A stretch of DNA of 64,000 nt from Actinotignum schaalii (lineage in GTDB: Bacteria > Actinomycetota > Actinomycetes > Actinomycetales > Actinomycetaceae), in the NCBI RefSeq assembly GCF_000724605.1, contig NZ_CP008802.1:1364001-1428000 (forward strand). The letters are read 5' to 3'. Position 1 is the first letter of the stretch; each line of letters begins with the position of its first letter. A program made the translations under genes and the position numbers. This document shows positions 4,006 through 44,737 of this stretch, piece after piece. Under the pieces are notes generated by a model. The model was not told the DNA's origin, made no database searches, and was given only the letters and a program-made list of their open reading frames with translations.

Positions 4006-4226
4006 AAAGTGCGCGTTCTGGACATTGACCCCCGCGAAGTGCGCGTAAGGAACACAAAACCGTACCGAAACGGTGCTCTTACGCGCACTTCATTCCGGCG
4101 CTTTGGCGACTAGCCCGCCGCTCCTTACAGCTGCCCAGCAAAGTGGTACTGGAGAACAGCGGGCCTTACAGAGTGGTACTCCACGACAGAAAACCGGGCG
4201 CTGATTGTAGCTCCAGTACCACTTTG
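4006..4226 (+). repeat. dispersed intergenic repeat family B, copy 1 (two triple-motif hairpin modules)
   Basis: Module 1 carries AAGTGCGCG twice in direct orientation (4007 and 4037) and once inverted; 4037-4049 and 4078-4090 form a perfect 13-bp inverted repeat. Module 2 carries GTGGTACT twice direct (4143 and 4173) and once inverted; 4139-4154 and 4211-4226 form a perfect 16-bp inverted repeat. A near-complete relative lies at 44515-44737, and module 2 alone, inverted, lies at 30517-30607. Arm changes between copies are compensatory. Confidence 0.75.
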
Positions 4227-4320
4227 CGGGCAGCCCCGCCAGATCGGCACCCACTCAACGCAAGATCGGCACTCGCTCAACACTCGATCCGTGCACCCTT
4301 CGCGCACCCCGGGCAGCACA

Positions 4321-24397: not shown

Positions 24398-24589
24398 GTG
24401 ATAACAGTCGAAGCCCTGACGAAACGCTACGGTGCGACCACCGCGGTCGATAACCTCAGTTTCCAGCTCCAACCCGGGAAAATCACCGGGTTCCTCGGCC
24501 CGAACGGTTCGGGCAAATCCACCACGATGCGCTGCATTATGGGGCTGGATCGCCCCACTTCCGGGCGCGCCCTCATTGCCGGTCTGCCT

Positions 24590-24810
24590 TACGAGCAGCT
24601 CGCCTCCCCGCTCACCACGGTGGGTGCGCTGCTGGACGGCAAGGCTTTCCACGGCTCGCGCAGCGCGCGCAGCCACCTGCAGATTCTGGCGGCCACCCAC
24701 GGGATTCCCGCGCGGCGCGTGGACGAAGTCATCGAGCTGACCGGAATCGGGAGCGTGGCCAAGCGCAAACTCAAGGGCTTCTCCTTAGGCATGGGCCAGC
24801 GGCTCGGGAT
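24590..24810 (+). repeat. left copy of 221-bp direct duplication flanking the insertion sequence
   Basis: Identical by eye to 26513-26733. The copy begins with TACGAGCAGCTCGCC and ends with CGGCTCGGGAT immediately before the left terminal repeat of the element. Confidence 0.95.
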
Positions 24811-26512
24811 CCTGAGTCGTGCAACTTTTTGAGTTTTGAGATTTTCTCGAGTGTTTTGCCTGGTCAGGGGCTTGTGGTTGGTGGTTTTGGGTCACTAAAA
24901 GGGTGGTGGTGTTTTAGCTAGACTAAGGCCATGGCGCCTTTCCTACGTAAAGTGAGAACCGCCTCGGGTGCCACGGCCGTGCAGATCGTGGAAAAACAAG
25001 GCCGGGTAAACCGGGTCATCAAACACCTCGGCTCAGCACACGACGAGGCCACACTGGCAGCATTACTCGAGAAAGGCCGCCAAGAACTCTCCCCGGGCCA
25101 GTTAAAACTCGACTTATTCGATAGTGGTAGCCCTGGTAGCCCGCGCGCTTCTACCCTGGCTAAACGCTCAACGCTACTGTGGCAAGTCCTCCAGGACGCC
25201 TACCGGGTAGTGGGCTTCGACCAGGCTATCAGAGACAACGTATTCGAGCAGTTGGTTTTAGCCAGAATTGTTGAACCGGCCTCGAAAGCTGACACGATCC
25301 GTATCCTCGACGAGCTCGGCGTCGAGCACGCGAGTTTGCGTACCATATTCACTACCCTGCGTCGCTGCGCGGATAAAGACTACCGCTCCCAACTCGCCCA
25401 GGCGTGTTTCCAGCACGCCACAAAATCCGGGGATCTATCACTGGTGTTGTATGACGTGACTACCCTGTATTTCGAGGCTGAACGCGAGGACGAGGACGGG
25501 GACGCGAATGGGGGATTACGGAAAGTCGGGTACTCGAAAGAAAGACGTGTTGACCCTCAAATCGTGGTGGGTTTGCTGGTAGACCGTGGCGGGTTTCCTT
25601 TGGAGATCGGTTGTTTTGAGGGTAACAAAGCTGAAACTAAAACCATTCTCCCAGTCGTGAAAGGCTTTCAAGCCCGTCACGGGTTAGATAGTTTCGTGGT
25701 GGTAGCAGACGCGGGAATGCTCAGCGCCAACAACCTCAAGGAATTAGACGCAGCCGGGTTCAGGTTCATAGTCGGGGCCAGGCAAACCAAAGCACCCTAC
25801 GATCTGGAATCCCATTTCCACTGGCATGGCGCGTCTTTTACTGACGGGCAGATTATCGACACGGTCACGCCCAGGCATGCCAATACGAAAGTCAATGACA
25901 AGCTGGAGGAAGGCGAGCCTGTGTGGGATGAGACTATGGTCAAGTCCTGGCGGGCTATCTGGCAGTACTCCGGGAAGCGAGCCCGCAGGGATGGGCTCAC
26001 CCTGGAAGCCCAACGCCGGCGTGCTATGGAAGCGATAGAAGGCGTTAAGCCCGCGCGTAAACCCAGGTTCGTGAAAACCACTCGTAACGGTTGTAGTTTC
26101 GATGAGGTGGCCTTTGAACGCGCCCGGAGGCTAGAAGGATTGAAAGGCTATGTCACTAATATCCCGGCCATGGTGGCTCCGGCAACGCAAATCATTGATT
26201 CCTACCACGAATTGTGGCATGTAGAACAGTCTTTCCGTATGTCTAAATCGGATTTACGAGCCAGGCCGATATTCCACCGGAAGCGTGACGCAATTGAAGC
26301 GCACCTGACCGTGGTGATGGGTGCTTTGGCTATCTCCCGTTATCTCTACCAGAAAACCGGGGTCACGACTAAAAAACTCGTACGCCTGCTACGCCCGATC
26401 CAGGAACAAACCATCCTTTATCAAGGCCATGAAATCCGTTCCAGTGATCCCGTCCCGCCCCAAGCCCAAGAAATCCTAGACAGTCTGGGTCACTAAAGTT
26501 GCACGACTCAGG
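24811..26512 (+). mobile_element. IS1634/IS1549-like insertion sequence, 1,702 bp
   Basis: The element has perfect 17-bp terminal inverted repeats, CCTGAGTCGTGCAACTT at 24811-24827 and its complement at 26496-26512. It carries one transposase gene in between. The flanking host sequence is duplicated for 221 bp rather than the usual 2-14 bp. From the literature as I remember it, IS1549 of Mycobacterium smegmatis also makes long direct repeats on insertion. The identical repeats point to a very recent event. Confidence 0.9.
24931..26496 (+). CDS. IS1634/IS1549-family (IS4-like DDE) transposase
   Basis: The 521-residue protein has the DDE layout: first Asp in LVLYDVTTLYFEAE near 175, second in VVVADAGMLSANN near 262, and catalytic Glu in the Y-x-x-L-W-x-V-E-x-x-F-R-x-S-K segment near 430, the YREK-type signature of IS4-related transposases. 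Length and order fit the IS1634/IS1549 group. The stop codon TAA overlaps the start of the right terminal repeat. The gene looks intact, so it could also act in trans on the transposase-less element at 28386-30304. Confidence 0.9.
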   Translation: MAPFLRKVRTASGATAVQIVEKQGRVNRVIKHLGSAHDEATLAALLEKGRQELSPGQLKLDLFDSGSPGSPRASTLAKRSTLLWQVLQDAYRVVGFDQAIRDNVFEQLVLARIVEPASKADTIRILDELGVEHASLRTIFTTLRRCADKDYRSQLAQACFQHATKSGDLSLVLYDVTTLYFEAEREDEDGDANGGLRKVGYSKERRVDPQIVVGLLVDRGGFPLEIGCFEGNKAETKTILPVVKGFQARHGLDSFVVVADAGMLSANNLKELDAAGFRFIVGARQTKAPYDLESHFHWHGASFTDGQIIDTVTPRHANTKVNDKLEEGEPVWDETMVKSWRAIWQYSGKRARRDGLTLEAQRRRAMEAIEGVKPARKPRFVKTTRNGCSFDEVAFERARRLEGLKGYVTNIPAMVAPATQIIDSYHELWHVEQSFRMSKSDLRARPIFHRKRDAIEAHLTVVMGALAISRYLYQKTGVTTKKLVRLLRPIQEQTILYQGHEIRSSDPVPPQAQEILDSLGH

Positions 26513-26733
26513 TACGAGCAGCTCGCCTCCCCGCTCACCACGGTGGGTGCGCTGCTGGACGGCAAGGCTTTCCACGGCTCGCGCAGCGCGCGCAGCCACC
26601 TGCAGATTCTGGCGGCCACCCACGGGATTCCCGCGCGGCGCGTGGACGAAGTCATCGAGCTGACCGGAATCGGGAGCGTGGCCAAGCGCAAACTCAAGGG
26701 CTTCTCCTTAGGCATGGGCCAGCGGCTCGGGAT
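26513..26733 (+). repeat. right copy of 221-bp direct duplication
   Basis: Second copy of the ABC ATPase segment 24590-24810, starting directly after the right terminal repeat of the insertion sequence. It contains the ABC signature region and continues into the rest of the ATPase gene. Confidence 0.95.
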
Positions 26734-27318
26734 TGCCGCGGCGCTGCTGGGCGACCCGGAAGTGCTGCTCTTTGACGAACCCGTGAACGGCCTGGATCCG
26801 GACGGGGTGCGCTGGGTGCGTCTGCTCATGCGCACGCTCGCGCAGCAGGGCCGCACCATCTTGGTCTCCTCGCATCTCATGAGCGAAATGCAGCAAACCG
26901 CCGACGACCTGCTGGTCATCGGGCGCGGGCGCATGATCGCCTTCGGGCCCATCGAAAGCTTCACCGAGGCCGCGGCGAATACCACCGTGCTGGTGGCGTC
27001 CCCGAACCGGGCCGGCCTGGAGAGCGCGCTGCGCGCGGCCGGGCTGGACTTCCAGGACGCTAGCGAGGTTGCTACTTCGGGCGCCGTGCCCGCGGCACCC
27101 ACGGCCAGTGCAGCCGCGGCACCCGCACCTGTCGCCCGCTTCGCGATCCCCGGCGGTTCGCGCGCGGACATCGGCAAAATCGCCTTCGAGGCGGGAGTGC
27201 AGCTGGACGAACTGGCCACCATCCACCGCTCGCTGGAAGATATTTTCATGGACCTGACCGGCCACGACGTCGAATACGGCGCGGGCCGCCCCGCCACGAA
27301 CCTCCCGGGAGGCCACCA

Positions 27319-28224
27319 ATGAGTACCGCTTTTGTTCCCGCTGGCCCCGGCACTCCCGGCGCTCCCGGTGCCGCCGCGCCTCAGCTCGCTCAGCTCCCCC
27401 CGCGCATCAGCCAATTCGCCGCGCCAAGCTACCGCGTCACGCTAGGCCGCTCCGTGCGCTCCGAGCTGCGCAAAATCCTCACGCTGCCTTCGCTGCGCTG
27501 GACGCTCATCATCGGCACCCTCTTCTCGCTGGCCATCACCGCGCTAACCGCCTGGGGTTCCAGCGAGCTCGAACTCAACACCTACGCCACCGCGATGGGC
27601 GCGGAGCATTCTCTCGCCGCCTACGTCCTCATCAGCGCGAGCACCATTTTCCAAATCATCATGGTGGCTTTCGGCGCCGTCACGGTGTGCTCGGAATACG
27701 CCGCGAACACCATGCGCTCCACGGTGAGCGCCGACCCGCGCCGCTGGCGCAACGTGGCCGCCCGCACCCTCGCGCTCAGCCTGGTTGCCCTGGTCACCAC
27801 GCTTGTTCTGCTGGTGCTGGGTGCCGTGGTGGGCACCCTCTTCGGCCTCTCCATCGGTTTCAGCGGCGACGCCTGGTGGCTCTACCTCAACTTCATCATC
27901 GCCATGGTCACCTCCGCGTGGATGGCCCTGGGAATCGGCTATCTGCTGCGCAGTTCGGCCGGCACCATCGTGCTGATCCTCGCGGTGATGATGCTATCCC
28001 CGGTGCTCGCGCTTATTCCCTCCGAGTTCGTGCGCAGCTTCGTGATCCCCTACCTGCCGCCGATGCTCCTCACCGCGGCGCTCAGCCCGCCCGGCCTCAA
28101 CGCCGGCGCCGACGTCCCCTCGTTCACGGTTTCCAGCCCGGCCATCGGCCTGGGGTTGTGGTGCGCGCTGGCGGTGGTGCTGCTCGCGCTGGGTGGCTGG
28201 CGCTTCTCGCGTTCTGACGTGTAG
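27319..28224 (+). CDS. ABC-2 type exporter permease
   Basis: The 301-residue protein has a Pro/Ala/Gly-rich N-terminal tail and six membrane segments, starting near residue 62 (WTLIIGTLFSLAITALTAW) and ending near 293. The arrangement is that of ABC-2 permeases such as those of bacteriocin or drug exporters. The cytoplasmic segment SVRSELRKILTLPSLRW before the first helix is typical. The ATG overlaps the stop of the ATPase gene (ATGA). Because the ATPase gene is disrupted, this permease is probably orphaned. The last 66 bases of the gene are repeated at 30305-30370 as part of a second long duplication. Confidence 0.88.
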   Translation: MSTAFVPAGPGTPGAPGAAAPQLAQLPPRISQFAAPSYRVTLGRSVRSELRKILTLPSLRWTLIIGTLFSLAITALTAWGSSELELNTYATAMGAEHSLAAYVLISASTIFQIIMVAFGAVTVCSEYAANTMRSTVSADPRRWRNVAARTLALSLVALVTTLVLLVLGAVVGTLFGLSIGFSGDAWWLYLNFIIAMVTSAWMALGIGYLLRSSAGTIVLILAVMMLSPVLALIPSEFVRSFVIPYLPPMLLTAALSPPGLNAGADVPSFTVSSPAIGLGLWCALAVVLLALGGWRFSRSDV

Positions 28225-28385
28225 TCGCGCCTGAGCCGCGGCGCTTTCCAGCGCAGCGCTTTTACGTACGGCGCTTTCAAGCGCGGCATCTTTAAGCACG
28301 ACGACGCAGGTGGGGCCCGGGCAATCGCCCGGGCCCCACCTGTTTCACTAGCCCGCGGGCAACCCCAACCGGTAGGAAGCTCCGG
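28159..28385 (+). repeat. left copy of long direct duplication flanking the fic element
   Basis: From TGGTGCGCGCTGG to CCGGTAGGAAGCTCCGG, ending exactly at the left terminal repeat of the fic element. The right copy begins at 30305, directly after the other terminal repeat. The coding part is identical and the rest differs at roughly ten positions. The left copy lacks about 143 bp that the right copy has. Confidence 0.88.
28308..28341 (+). terminator. strong terminator of the ABC exporter operon
   Basis: AGGTGGGGCCCGGGC (28308-28322) pairs perfectly with GCCCGGGCCCCACCT (28327-28341) around a 4-base loop, then GTTTCAC. It lies 84 bases after the permease stop. It is duplicated at 30455-30488 with the rest of the flanking repeat. 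Confidence 0.8.
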
Positions 28386-28459
28386 CCTGACTTGCACAGC
28401 CTTAGTGACCCACCACCCTCAGCAGCCGGCAGTCGGGTCACTAATCTGCACGAGTCAGG
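28386..28459. repeat. 74-bp MITE-like unit with IS-type ends
   Basis: Both ends match the right end of the IS1634-like element: CCTGACTTGCACAG then TTAGTGACCC at 28386, and GGGTCACTAA then CTGCACGAGTCAGG ending at 28459. The unit forms the outer end of the fic element, so that end is doubled in inverted orientation. Confidence 0.65.
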
Positions 28460-28488
28460 CAAACCGGCGAATGACGGGCAGCACCACC

Positions 28489-28625
28489 TTCCCGAGCAAA
28501 ACCCGTCCTGAGTGACGGAGAACTACCTTTTCCCGAGCAAAACCCGCAATGAATAATGGACAACCGCCAGATCCCAAGCAAAAATACTCGCGAATGATGG
28601 ACAATGGGCACTTCCCCATCATTCA
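28489..28625 (+). repeat. 41-bp tandem repeats, left of fic
   Basis: Three exact-length units, 28489-28529, 28530-28570 and 28571-28611, share TTCCCRAGCAAAA and, in the later units, AATGATGGACAA. They are followed by TTCCCCATCATT. The same unit and the same following sequence occur on the other side of fic at 29962-30060. There are no unique spacers, so this is not a CRISPR array. Confidence 0.75.
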
Positions 28626-28732
28626 TCGGCGCTTGTGATGGTAAACCAGCAGGAGAAGCACACCCCCTCACAGCCGGAAAAGCCAGCCGAGATGCCCGCC
28701 AAAGCGCCCCGAAGGCCGCTGTCGGCTCAGGC

Positions 28733-29923
28733 TCAAACCAACACCCGAACGATCGCAGGCGCGAAATACACTTTCGGCCGAGCGCTCTCGTTGACGGCGG
28801 CCAAGATTTCCAGATTCTCTAGCTGCCTAATTAGCTCGCCCGCTCGCGCCACTGAAAGATCCAGTTCTTCCGCTAGCGCCTTAGTCGTGAAAGTGATTTT
28901 CGCGATGGCTAAATCTACCACACGCAGACCCGCTTCTGAACGTAGACCAGAATCACGCACTTTGCCTTTGAGCACATTTCGAACACGCATCAGCTCCTGC
29001 ACCTGGCGCAAGGCCTGGCTGGCCGATTGCCCTATTCCTCTGGCGAAAAATTCGACGTACTCATCCCAGTTACCGGCGGTACTTACCGCAAGCAGCCGGT
29101 CATAGTATTCTGCTCGACGGGCTTCAAACCAAGGCGAAACGGAAAGCGTCGGCTCGGAAAGCACACCCTGAGACATCAAGTGCAGAACTATCAGCAGCCT
29201 ACCGAGCCTGCCGTTGCCATCCATAAACGGATGTAGAGTCTCAAACTGATAATGCGACATTGCGGCGGCGACCACGGGGTCTATCCGCTCAGAATGATCC
29301 TGCCCTATCCATTCCACCAGCCTTTCGACGCCCGAAATCAGCAAGTCCCCCGGAGGAGCTGGAACAAACCTAGAGGAAAGTATCGCTGGCTCATTTGCTT
29401 TGGCGCTACTTCGCTTACCTATGACAACCTGACGCTCTCGCAGCCGTCCGGATTGCCCAGCCAGTCGAGTGCCTTTCATCAGCTCCCCCTGCAGGGCTGT
29501 AAGCATCCCAACAGATATTTCTCTCCCGTAACTCAACCATTCAAAAGCCGCATAGGACATATCCAGATAGTTGATGATCTCACGCATGGTCTCGTCTTCT
29601 GGCGAGTCAACATCAGTTGTCATGACTCGCTCCAGAGGAGCATATGTGCCTTCCAAAGCAGAGGTGCTTTGCGCTTCCCGACGAAGAGCAGAACTTCTGA
29701 AAAGAGCAGGGTTAGGAAGCTGTAAAGCAACAGCGTCCAAAGCAGCCAAGCTAGACCTGGCATTTGCGACTTGGACGACAGTCCGCCCAGACAGCTCAGG
29801 CATCTCAGAAGGAAGCACGGCGGGCACGAACGCCTTGTGCTCCCAACTACCCAAAATGGGATCACTGCCCGCAATGTCCACCAACGAACCCATCTGCGGG
29901 GCAGTAAAGTCTTCAAGCCTCAT
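28733..29923 (-). CDS. Fic-domain protein (AMPylator type) with self-inhibitory motif and winged helix
   Basis: The 396-residue protein carries the full Fic active site HPFMDGNGRLGR at about 231-242. The inhibitory helix motif (S/T)xxxE(G/N) appears as TSALEG at about 87-92, so it is a class II Fic protein in which the block lies N-terminal in the same chain. The C-terminal about 60 residues (FTTKALAEELDLSVARAGEL) form a winged helix as in stand-alone regulators of the SoFic type. Such enzymes transfer AMP, or occasionally another nucleotide, to hydroxyl groups of target proteins and often act as housekeeping toxins or stress switches. The ATG at 29923 has no strong ribosome site. The gene sits inside a mobile unit, bracketed by 41-bp repeats, and is AT-richer than the host. 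Confidence 0.9.
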   Translation of the reverse strand: MRLEDFTAPQMGSLVDIAGSDPILGSWEHKAFVPAVLPSEMPELSGRTVVQVANARSSLAALDAVALQLPNPALFRSSALRREAQSTSALEGTYAPLERVMTTDVDSPEDETMREIINYLDMSYAAFEWLSYGREISVGMLTALQGELMKGTRLAGQSGRLRERQVVIGKRSSAKANEPAILSSRFVPAPPGDLLISGVERLVEWIGQDHSERIDPVVAAAMSHYQFETLHPFMDGNGRLGRLLIVLHLMSQGVLSEPTLSVSPWFEARRAEYYDRLLAVSTAGNWDEYVEFFARGIGQSASQALRQVQELMRVRNVLKGKVRDSGLRSEAGLRVVDLAIAKITFTTKALAEELDLSVARAGELIRQLENLEILAAVNESARPKVYFAPAIVRVLV

Positions 29924-29961
29924 GACGTAAATTTTAGGTCACCGCGACGCACAAACCCAGG

Positions 29962-30060
29962 CTCAATGATGGACAAGTGCCACTTCCCAAGCAAAACCAC
30001 TAGCAAATGATGAACAAGAGGCACTTCCCCATCATTCAGCAGCTCCATTGATGGTAAACC
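29962..30060 (+). repeat. 41-bp tandem repeats, right of fic
   Basis: A partial unit (29962-29983) and one full 41-bp unit (29984-30024) are followed by TTCCCCATCATTCA and GATGGTAAACCAGCA, exactly as on the left side at 28592-28653. The fic gene is therefore enclosed by direct repeats of about 60-105 bp. 30061-30290 holds no gene, only the AT-rich subterminal part of the element. Confidence 0.7.
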
Positions 30061-30454
30061 AGCAAAGCTGAAGCCGGCCAAGAAGCGGTCGGAGCTGACT
30101 CGTGGAGCACGGTAGCGAAACCACCCCGCTACATTCGTAACTCATTTTCGTAAATATTTACGCCTCAATACAGTAGCCCCGCTTCATAGTTGGGCTACTG
30201 AACCAGACCAGTAGTAGACACCACCACCAAAACACCAAACCCCGCTTGACAAGGAAAAACGCGAGCGAAAACTCTAAAAAATGGCATCACCTGTGCAAGT
30301 CAGGTGGTGCGCGCTGGCGGTGGTGCTGCTCGCGCTGGGTGGCTGGCGCTTCTCGCGTTCTGACGTGTAGTCGCGCCTGAACCGCGGAGCTTTCCAGCGC
30401 GGCGTTTTTACGTACGGCACTTTCCAGCACGGCATCTTTTAAGCACGACGACGC

Positions 30455-30488
30455 AGGTGGGGCCCGGGCAATCGCCCGGGCCCCACCT
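30455..30488 (+). terminator. duplicated terminator hairpin
   Basis: Exact copy of the 15-bp-stem terminator at 28308-28341, carried along by the long duplication. Confidence 0.75.
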
Positions 30489-30516
30489 GTTTCACTAGCC
30501 CGCGGGCAACCTCGCT

Positions 30517-30607
30517 TACAAAGTGGTACTGGAGCTACAACCAACACCCGATTTCCTGTCGGGGAGTACCACTTTGTATGGCTCGATGTCGTACAGGACC
30601 ACTTTGT
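30517..30607 (-). repeat. dispersed repeat family B, module 2 only, inverted
   Basis: TACAAAGTGGTACT (30517-30530) and AGTACCACTTTGTA (30565-30578) form a perfect 14-bp inverted repeat. A third motif, GGACCACTTTGTT, ends at 30607. Read on the minus strand, the order (direct, direct, inverted) and the conserved spacer with ATCGGG and TGTAGCTCC match the copies at 4139-4226 and 44646-44737. Confidence 0.75.
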
Positions 30608-30688
30608 TCCCTCAGCATGCGGTAGGACTCAAGCTAGGCACACCGATGCCAACCCAGCCGGTAGGAAGCTCCGGGGAGGCGTGGAATA

Positions 30689-33600
30689 ATGAGGCACGAT
30701 ATGGATAAGTCTCAGGAACCCGCAGCGCCCTCCGGCAAGGGCGAGGCCAACCACCACGCCCGCACCGACCAGCGCAACGGTGATGGCTCGACCAGCCGGC
30801 AGGGAGATGGCGCTTCGCGCCGTCGTCGTTCCAACCGCACCGGCACGCAAGGCAACCGCGGCCGCAACAATAACCAAAGCAAACGCCGCAGCAACCGCGC
30901 CAACCGCACCAACCCACGCGGGCCGCGGCCCTTCACCCCCGCGCAACTCGAAGCGCGCCGGGCCGCCGTCCCGCGCATTAGCTACCCGGAAACCCTACCC
31001 GTTTCCGCTCGGCGCGCGGAGATCCGCGAGGCCATCGCCGCGAACCAGGTGGTTATTATCGCCGGGGAAACCGGCTCCGGGAAAACCACGCAGCTGCCGA
31101 AAATCTGCCTGGAGCTGGGCCGCGGCATCACCGGGCTCATCGGGCACACCCAGCCGCGGCGCATCGCCGCCCGCTCGGTTGCCGAACGCATCGCGGCCGA
31201 ACTGGGGCAGAAAGTCGGCGGCGCCGTCGGCTATCAGGTGCGTTTCACCGAAGAAGTGGGCCCCACCACGCTCGTCAAACTCATGACGGACGGCATCCTG
31301 CTCGCGGAAATCCAATCTGATCCGCAACTACTGCGCTACGACACCCTCATCATCGACGAAGCGCACGAACGCTCCCTCAATATCGACTTCATCCTCGGCT
31401 ACCTCGCGCGCCTGCTGCCCGCGCGCCCCGACCTCAAAGTCATCATCACCTCCGCGACCATCGACACCGAGCGCTTCGCCGCGCATTTCGGCGAGCACCG
31501 CGCGGGCGGCCGCCCCGGCGACACCGCGCCCATCATCGAAGTGTCCGGGCGCACGTATCCGGTGGAAATCCGGTACCGGCCCCTCGATGAGGAACAGGAT
31601 ACGGACCAGGGCGAACAGTACGACGACGCCGGTGCGCAGCGCGTAACCGCGCCGCGCACCCCGGGCCGGGCCGCGGCACTTGATCAGGTGAGTGGAATCG
31701 TGGCGGCTGCCGAGGAGCTCATGGCGGAAGGCGAGGGCGATATTCTGGTCTTCCTCTCCGGGGAAGGCGAGATTCGCGATACCGCGAAGGCGCTCGATGA
31801 CGAGCTCGGGGCGCGATATGTGGCGCCCGGGGGGAGCTCCAGCGCGCCGGGCGCCGTGGAGGTGCTGCCGCTGTTTTCGCGGCTTTCCGCGGCCGAACAG
31901 CACCGGATTTTCCAGCCCGGTCCCTACCGGCGCATTATCCTGGCCACGAATATTGCGGAGACGTCGCTGACGGTCCCCGGAATCAAGTACGTGATTGACC
32001 CGGGCACCGCGCGCATTTCGCGCTACTCGAATAAGACGAAGGTGCAGCGCCTGCCCATCGAGCCGATTTCGCAGGCCAGCGCCAATCAGCGGTCGGGGCG
32101 GTGCGGGCGCGTTATGGACGGGATCGCGATCCGGCTCTATTCCGAGGATGATTTCCTGGCTCGGCCCGAATTCACCCAGCCGGAGATTCAGCGCACGTCG
32201 CTGGCCGCGGTGATTTTGCAGATGCTCGCGCTCGGGCTGGGCGCCGTCGACGATTTTCCTTTTATTGACCCGCCCGAAGCGCGGGCGGTGCGGGCCGGAA
32301 CCCAGCTCCTCGAAGAAATCGGGGCGATTACTTATGGAGCGGCGGGTGCCTTTGGGGCGGCGGGCGCGGCTGGGACCGAGCACGGCGCCACGGAAAGCGA
32401 CCCCGCACAGAGCGACCACCCGGAAAGCCGCTGGACAGAAAGCAGCCGCGCCGCGCACCGCCACGCCCCGCGCCTGACCGCCATCGGGCGGCAGCTCGCG
32501 CGCCTGCCTATTGACCCGCGCCTGGGCCGCATGCTTATCGAGGCGCAGCGCAACGGGTGCGCTTCCGAAGTATTGGTGCTGGTGGCGGCGCTGTCGGTGC
32601 AGGATGTGCGCGAGCGGCCCACCGAGAAACGCGCCCAGGCCGATCAGTTCCACGCGCGGTTCACGGCCGGCTCATCGGATTTCCTCGCGTATCTGACGCT
32701 GTGGCGCTATCTGCGCACCCAGGCGCGCGAGCTGTCCGGTTCGGCGTTCCGGCGCATGTGCCGCGCGGAATTCCTCAACTACCTGCGCTATCGCGAGTGG
32801 GCGGATGTGGTGGCGCAGCTGGAGCAGATGGCGCGGCCGCTGGAGCTGACGATCCGCCGCCTGGCGCTGCCCAGCCCGAAGCAGATTCGCGCCGCGGCCG
32901 ATGCGGGGGCGGCTCAGCTGGGCGGGGCCCCGAATTCCGGTGCGGTGGCCCACGCCTGCCGCGAGCTCGGGCGCGGTTCGGATACCCCGGAATCGGGGGC
33001 GATTCACCGGTCGCTGCTGGTGGGGCTGCTGTCCAATATCGGCAATTATTCCCCGCGCAGCCGCGATTACCTGGGCGCGCGCGGCACCCATTTCGTGATC
33101 TGGCCCGGCTCGGGCCTGCACCGGCGCACCCCGGAGTGGGTGATGGCCGCCGAGCTGGTGGAAACGTCCCGGCTGTTCGCCCGCACCGTGGCCGCGATCC
33201 AGCCGGAGTGGATCGAGCCGCTGGCGAAGAAGCTGGTACGGCGTTCCTATTCGGAGCCGTATTGGTCGGCGAAGAACGGCGCGGCGATGGTTCACGAAAA
33301 GGTGACGCTTTACGGGGTGACCCTGGTGGCGGACCGCCCCGTGCTGCTGGCAACCTCCGGTTCGGATGCGGCGCGCGAGCTGGCCCGCGAGATGTTCATC
33401 CGCCACGGGCTGGTGGAGGGTGAGTGGCGCACTCACCACGAGTTCCTGGCCCGCAACCGCGCGGCCCTCGAGGAGGCCGGCCGCACCGAAGATAAGCTGC
33501 GCCGCCACGGGCTGGTGGCTGATAATGACGCGCTGGCCGCGTTTTACGAGGAGCGCATCCCGGAGAGCGTGGTTTCCGGGCGGCATTTCGATTCCTGGTG

Positions 33601-44514: not shown

Positions 44515-44737
44515 AAAGTGGGCATTCTAGACAACGCATCCCGCCTAGTGGGCGTAAGAGACACGAAATCGACCCAAAACGGTGCTCTTACGCCCACTTC
44601 ATTTTGGGGCCGCCGGGGCTAACTCGCTGACTCCTGCTGCCGCCGAACAAAGTGGTACTCCACGACGGCGGGCCTTACAGAGTGGTACTCCACGACAGAA
44701 AATCGGGAGTTGGCTGTAGCTCCAGTACCACTTTGTT
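44515..44737 (+). repeat. dispersed repeat family B, copy 3 (both modules)
   Basis: Module 1: AAGTGGGC direct at 44516, direct at 44547 (one base variant) and inverted; 44547-44560 and 44585-44598 form a perfect 14-bp inverted repeat. Module 2: GTGGTACT direct at 44652 and 44682 and inverted; 44646-44659 and 44724-44737 form a perfect 14-bp inverted repeat. Compared with 4006-4226 the central C of module 1 is G in both direct arms and the partner base is changed to match. 44738-44941 holds nothing else. Confidence 0.75.

Follow-up and report, generated by a model that had tools for sequence, protein, structure and literature searches.

A fic gene between the ends of an IS1634-family element in Actinotignum schaalii: a probable mobile insertion cassette

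We have found, in a 64-kb stretch of the Actinotignum schaalii chromosome, a transposase-less unit (28386-30304) in which a fic gene lies between the two ends of an IS1634-family insertion sequence (IS). The stretch, here called the window, comprises positions C1:1364001-1428000 of G000, a single-contig genome of 2.16 Mb, and coordinates given without a locus are those of the window. The unit is probably an IS1634-family mobile insertion cassette that carries a probable defence gene and was moved in trans.

Perfect 14-bp inverted terminal repeats (CCTGACTTGCACAG) bound the unit at 28386-28399 (plus strand) and 30291-30304 (minus strand). With up to two mismatches, this sequence occurs in the 64 kb at the unit's own two sites only; shuffles of the window are expected to give 0.31 sites, and two were reached in 3 of 100 shuffles. 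Both repeats are the tips of longer ends. The outer R-type end (28386-28412, plus strand) is composed of the terminal repeat plus CCTTAGTGACCCA and is 92.6% (in round figures 93%) identical over 27 bp to the R ends of autonomous ISs in genomes G184 and G143. The outer L-type end (30218-30304, minus strand) is 70% identical over its 87 bp to the L end of the G184 element, and in this pairing it is the left end of the unit, the 27-bp R-type end being the right one. The gene fic (28733-29923, minus strand) is the one gene recognised within the unit and its only long frame with the look of an annotated gene, and it is read in the L-to-R direction that transposases take in the autonomous elements. 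A tblastn search of the unit alone with six IS1634 transposases gave a best match of E = 0.024, and no transposase remnant was found. The G+C content of the unit is 54%, versus 63% in the rest of the window. To this extent our results agree with the first-pass annotation of this DNA, which had described perfect 14-bp terminal repeats around a class II fic that takes the place and direction of a transposase gene.

The unit is flanked by a long duplication of its target. The left copy (28159-28385, plus strand; 227 bp) takes in the 3' end of a gene for an ABC permease and the intergenic DNA that follows, the right copy (30305-30674, plus strand) is 370 bp, and both abut the terminal repeats exactly (28385/28386 and 30304/30305). 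The duplication had previously been given as at least 227 bp and flush with the repeats; the flush boundaries held, and the size has to be amended to 370 bp for the right copy and 227 bp for the left, which is without about 143 bp that the right copy holds. A similar segment of about 143 bp is seen at the same place in the congener G052, which has no fic, and is absent at this place in the congener G053. The short form is present in both A. timonense copies, in the single copy of G053 and in the left copy here. Since G052 carries the segment in a genome without fic, the long form is probably ancestral, the segment would have been lost from the left copy, and the original duplication was probably about 370 bp. 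Empty sites with one target copy and no unit, which the first-pass annotation had suggested looking for, were found in G053 and G052, two of the four other congeners without fic; in G054 the contig breaks there, and nothing matched in G056. Between the two copies 8 of 227 aligned positions differ, and within the duplications of the three resident IS copies none do, so the insertion cannot be called recent. Because the duplication is long, insertion of the fic unit left the permease gene whole.

The window also holds an intact IS1634-family IS at 24811-26512 (plus strand), with a transposase gene at 24931-26496 (NCBIfam IS1634, E = 2.9e-117), 18-bp ends and a perfect 221-bp duplication (24590-24810 and 26513-26733). 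This resident IS occurs in three copies in the genome, with perfect duplications of 221, 33 and 98 bp, and a copy of its type in G053 has a 57-bp duplication; A. timonense also carries a copy, whose left end was not located. The subterminal sequences of the unit had been said to follow those of this upstream IS, and the unit to be derived from it or served by it. Neither claim is supported by our comparison: blastn gave no match between the resident IS and the unit at E <= 0.01, its termini (CCTGAGTCGTGCAACTTT) are unlike CCTGACTTGCACAG and place it in a sister subgroup, and the element in G184, of the other subgroup, matches instead. The resident IS was therefore rejected as the parent of the unit on the basis of its ends, and it is a possible helper, though an unproven one.

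The ends of the unit are those of another IS1634 subgroup (CCTGACTTGCACAG...TTAGTGACCC), transposase-bearing copies of which are present in other genera (G184, G187, G143, G397, G525 and G537). The 14-bp end was found in 10 of 213 genomes of the family Actinomycetaceae, where it bounds transposase-bearing elements of 1679 bp in G184, 1746 bp in G187 and 1689 bp in G143 (one G143 end with one mismatch). The IS1634 transposases of these three are 50-58% identical to the resident one; in G187 the coding sequence is broken into two frames. Matches to a 28-position model of the end were obtained in 15 of the 213 family genomes and in 10 of 396 genomes of the order, G000 being counted in both. Perfect duplications of 48, 52, 64, 75 and 239 bp were seen at five of the 12 end-bounded elements examined, a set that includes a second transposase-less unit, in G180, and lies apart from end pairs in G357 and G522 and from weak single matches in G029, G129, G132, G176, G203 and G204. 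The 75-bp duplication belongs to locus L107 of G397 and was measured from the outer of two doubled ends. Such double ends, 138 bp apart, occur twice in G397 (L105 5733-5870 and L107 5527-5664); alternative end use was considered for them and rejected, and they are probably assembly joins, as in each of them an N adjoins a copied IS tail. Single ends in G557, G492, G235, G095 and G211 revealed no second unit (reading frames were listed for G235 and G557 only), and two R-end patterns had no match in viral contigs.

The cargo is a 396-aa Fic protein with the Pfam domains Fic_N and Fic. Class II Fic proteins combine an HxFx(D/E)GNGRxxR active site with an N-terminal (S/T)xxxE(G/N) inhibitory motif, and both are intact in this protein, as HPFMDGNGRLGR and TSALEG, respectively. 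The active-site residues HP-DGNGR-GR and TSALEG are invariant in all 31 aligned proteins (31 of 43 fetched). Among solved structures, SoFic and a FIC-domain regulator top the list of sequence matches, and the PADLOC SoFic model matched with E = 2.6e-82. Fic is thus like SoFic in its two domains, its N-terminal inhibitory motif, its FIC active site and its PADLOC match. Unlike SoFic, it does not reach the NCBIfam equivalog cut-off (118 versus 550 bits), and we therefore describe it as SoFic-like and not as SoFic itself. SoFic is an abortive-infection anti-phage protein and in E. coli has an anti-SoFic gene downstream, according to the part of PMC12249575 that deals with it. No such gene was recognised among the short frames listed here, a comparison made without a search by sequence.

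Relatives of Fic are present in 31 of the 213 family genomes, including G000 and A. timonense, and those of the other 29 are 49-57% identical. Ten phage records hold a relative, each below 60% identity, as do 929 plasmid records, with 31-34% identity among the 15 listed and one further record in the 60-80% band. A search of Actinomycetaceae for fic between such ends without transposase, as had been proposed, gave nothing convincing: no similar facing end pair was seen within 1.5 kb on each side at 28 other family loci, among which the broken fic of G012 is not counted, or at 13 order loci. One facing end pair (L138; one of 41 loci, at the loosest setting), with four mismatches in 16 positions at each end and ends unlike each other, was taken as chance. 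In several fic loci of genus g3 (L017, L019 and others), which we take to be Actinomyces, intergenic repeats of the GGGGACA type, about 100-140 bp long, lie on both sides of the gene; in the two loci that were read, these direct repeats look like the common intergenic repeats of those genomes.

The second transposase-less unit is found in G180, of genus g29 (C19 6751-7549; L120, also L085 2752-3550). It is 799 bp long, has an R-type end with one mismatch and an L-type end, and shows no transposase match. Of the two proteins encoded by its overlapping frames, one (108 aa) has no match in Pfam and the other (113 aa) matches ribbon-helix-helix proteins at a score slightly under the cut-off; PADLOC returned nothing for either, and NCBIfam gave only sub-cut-off matches, for the 113-aa protein. 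A paralogous pair elsewhere in G180 (L126), 45% and 47% identical, has no such ends within 1.5 kb, and the first of its genes has one stop codon in the matched stretch. Weaker relatives of the 108-aa protein are present in four further genomes of the 213. We read the G180 gene pair as a putative toxin-antitoxin module.

A. timonense has the same fic at the same place, with the left terminal repeat and both duplicated copies. It is without 30089-30304 (plus strand), the rightmost 216 bp of the unit, and carries about 20 other bases instead. The gap starts 5 bp before position 30094, and its right break coincides, to within 1 bp, with the duplication's edge. The first-pass annotation had named fic at this place without terminal repeats as evidence that the unit is not a transposed element; this is partly what A. 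timonense presents, with the right repeat gone and the left repeat and both copies kept. We read the missing right end as later decay, and the gap may represent a break at the transposon end that was then repaired. Between the two species, fic differs at 6 of 1,191 positions in six codons, three changes being synonymous and three not, while identity in the flanking stretches ranges from 86.6 to 99.2% and is 94-97% in most of them, the 99.2% being reached at 31000-31500. Within each genome the duplication copies differ by 3-4%. As fic is closer between the species than most of the flanks and the copies are, its segment was possibly exchanged more recently than the insertion took place. Downstream of fic lie repeats of about 41-bp units (28461-28660, plus strand; 123 bp more than in A. 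timonense), which have a direct-repeat partner upstream of the gene at 29953-30064, leaving fic flanked by direct repeats of about 100 bp. In the 213 genomes, at E <= 0.001, the upstream repeat had no match beyond its partner and A. timonense.

Several observations weigh against the reading as a cassette moved in trans as one piece. The loss of the right repeat in A. timonense is one of them, and fic and the duplication need not share a history, in which case a single undisturbed insertion would not be the whole story. The unit is at the same site in A. timonense, no other site is known, and G000 has no second copy. No transposase of the unit's subgroup was found in G000, where a search with the resident transposase, whose reach is 50-58% identity, gave the three resident copies only, one of them split. 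No duplication was visible at 7 of the 12 end-bounded elements examined, the G180 unit among them; for that unit none could be established, as its contig stops after another 306 bp and such similarity as the flanks have looks like that of an interspersed repeat. Promoter-like sites show no excess over chance (one found, 1.1 expected). In the IS1634 family a duplication of 5-6 bp is usual, and long ones are reported for two elements, as far as the relevant part of PMC2266710 describes.

In one alternative, an ordinary transposase-bearing IS of the subgroup inserted and duplicated its target, and recombination in place later exchanged the transposase for fic, so that no fic unit would ever have moved. 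Such a replacement would account for a fic that is more alike between species than most flanks and the duplicated copies, and for a unit known at one site only, and the direct repeats around fic could have served the exchange. It requires two matched crossovers, however, and it has to accommodate the lack of a transposase remnant, the exact preservation of both ends and the G180 unit, which has the same build with another cargo; we regard it as unlikely. We give somewhat more credit, while still holding it doubtful, to a composite of two mini-elements, 28386-28459 (74 bp) and about 30094-30304 (211 bp), that flanked fic and whose outermost ends moved everything between them, A. timonense having lost the right one. 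Inside the outer R end, at 28434-28459 (minus strand), lies a clear inverted R-like end of the TCGTGCA subgroup (CCTGACTCGTGCAGATTAGTGACCCG), which is the type of the resident IS and delimits the possible 74-bp mini-element. The first 14 bases of this inner end, with up to two mismatches, occur at four sites in the 64 kb, namely both resident IS ends, the 28434-28459 site and 30094. At the last of these, a tentative end-like motif (GCTGACTCGTGGAG; 30094-30107, plus strand) is 5 bp from the A. timonense breakpoint, and the gap ends at the duplication to within 1 bp. That right inner end is nonetheless weak (12 of 14 bases; about 0.6 matches with two mismatches expected per window by chance) and was noticed after the breakpoint, and the outer ends correspond to those, L and R, of a single IS type, which is what a simple derivative would be expected to show. 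The composite is compatible with a cassette moved in trans, not opposed to it.

That the resident transposase (24931-26496) moved the unit in trans is improbable in our view. No intact IS1634 transposase gene was found in the genome outside the resident copies, whose right end has TTTAGTGACCCA in common with the unit's subgroup; the terminal bases differ (CCTGAGTCGTGCAACTTT), however, and the IS has no similarity to the unit at E <= 0.01. A segmental duplication with repeats around it by chance, without any transposition, has in its favour solely that the duplication copies are not identical. The ends, their type and orientation, the flush duplication and the empty sites are all concordant, and ends of the same types bound independent transposase-bearing elements with duplications of their own; we consider this alternative hardly credible.

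The L- and R-type ends, the long duplication and the empty sites indicate that the unit entered by transposition, as had been proposed from the first; that the fic unit moved as a whole, with a helper in trans and with a defence gene as cargo, is what we infer in addition. In the mechanism that we favour, the unit keeps the 87-bp left and 27-bp right ends of a CCTGACTTGCACAG-subgroup element, and the gene of the SoFic-like, predicted Fic adenylyltransferase stands where a transposase would be encoded. A same-subgroup transposase, for which no gene was found in today's genome, would have acted in trans and bound both ends, and the unit would have been inserted between the ABC permease gene and the next gene, with a long duplication, probably about 370 bp, as with sister elements, and with the permease gene kept whole. 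Fic is probably a phage-triggered abortive-infection toxin held off by its own inhibitory helix, and this role may be the reason why the cassette was retained.

Mobile insertion cassettes are already known, among them MIC231 of Bacillus cereus and the qnrD and qnrS2 cassettes, as set out in part of PMC3913671. The unit has in common with them IS-type inverted repeats around a passenger gene that replaces the transposase, a target duplication with, in our case, an empty site, and a movement in trans that is supposed or shown. For MIC231 it is the transposase of IS231A that does the moving, and the duplication of the qnrD cassette measures 2 bp (PMC3913671, same part); IS231 duplications are 10-12 bp in the corresponding part of PMC2266710. 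Those cassettes carry resistance or peptidase genes, whereas in our unit the ends are of the IS1634 type, the duplication runs to hundreds of bases and the passenger is fic. The matching transposases belong to the IS1634/IS1549 family, and the unit is like a non-autonomous derivative of that family in the terminal inverted repeats that it has in common with transposase-bearing elements and in its flush duplication, which is long like those of IS1549, IS1634 and the sister elements described above. It is unlike an autonomous member in having a passenger gene and no IS1634 transposase, or remnant of one, of its own. For IS1549 and IS1634, duplications of 8-514 bp are given, and the part of the 2008 review concerned with them knows of no mechanistic model for these long, variable duplications (PMC2266710). 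In Tn6097 of Paracoccus, IS1634-family ends also move passenger genes, but there two complete ISPfe2 copies and a 6-bp duplication are described in the part of PMC3281130 on this transposon. The unit keeps ends only, of 27 and 87 bp, or possibly mini-elements of 74 and about 211 bp, and has none of the two complete IS copies of a composite transposon. Among the matches listed in the literature searched, which mostly lacks subscription journals, there was neither a mobile insertion cassette of the IS1634 type nor one with Fic. IS1634-type ends with a Fic cargo are a new variation on a known theme.

Further repeats and IS copies were observed in and around these loci. The ABC transporter gene pair at 24398-28224 has been hit twice, with the resident IS splitting the ATPase gene and the fic unit behind the permease gene. 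The window has three copies of a palindromic, roughly 90-bp repeat with ACAAAGTGGTACT arms, at 4138-4227, 30518-30607 and 44647-44736; nine matches to the arm with up to one mismatch were found in the window, and 0.04 were expected. In the third resident IS copy (L004, G000:C1:1464665-1466367), the one with the perfect 98-bp duplication, the transposase gene is divided between two frames. A solitary right end of this IS type (L005 1501-1536, G000:C1:1524393-1524428) has no partner visible within 1.5 kb on either side. In G187, a weak Fic-like stretch (L080 130-375; 35% identity over 85 aa) lies about 350 bp outside an IS of the unit's subgroup, a possible picture of cargo pick-up.

More tentatively, CCTGACTTGCACAG-subgroup ends may be a general vehicle for small toxin or defence modules in Actinomycetales, which would travel on the transposases of relatives and whose long duplication could spare the target gene; the SoFic-like fic in Actinotignum and the toxin-antitoxin-like pair in genus g29 would be two such cassettes. 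If the cassette reading is true, a lone defence gene with a short end on each side can travel without an enzyme of its own, and the long duplication of this group can leave a target gene intact. Anti-phage genes are mobile between genomes, and the smallest of their vehicles are little known; annotation that seeks transposases would overlook cassettes of this kind. Non-autonomous units with clean duplications would also be simple substrates for studying the mechanism by which long duplications are made.

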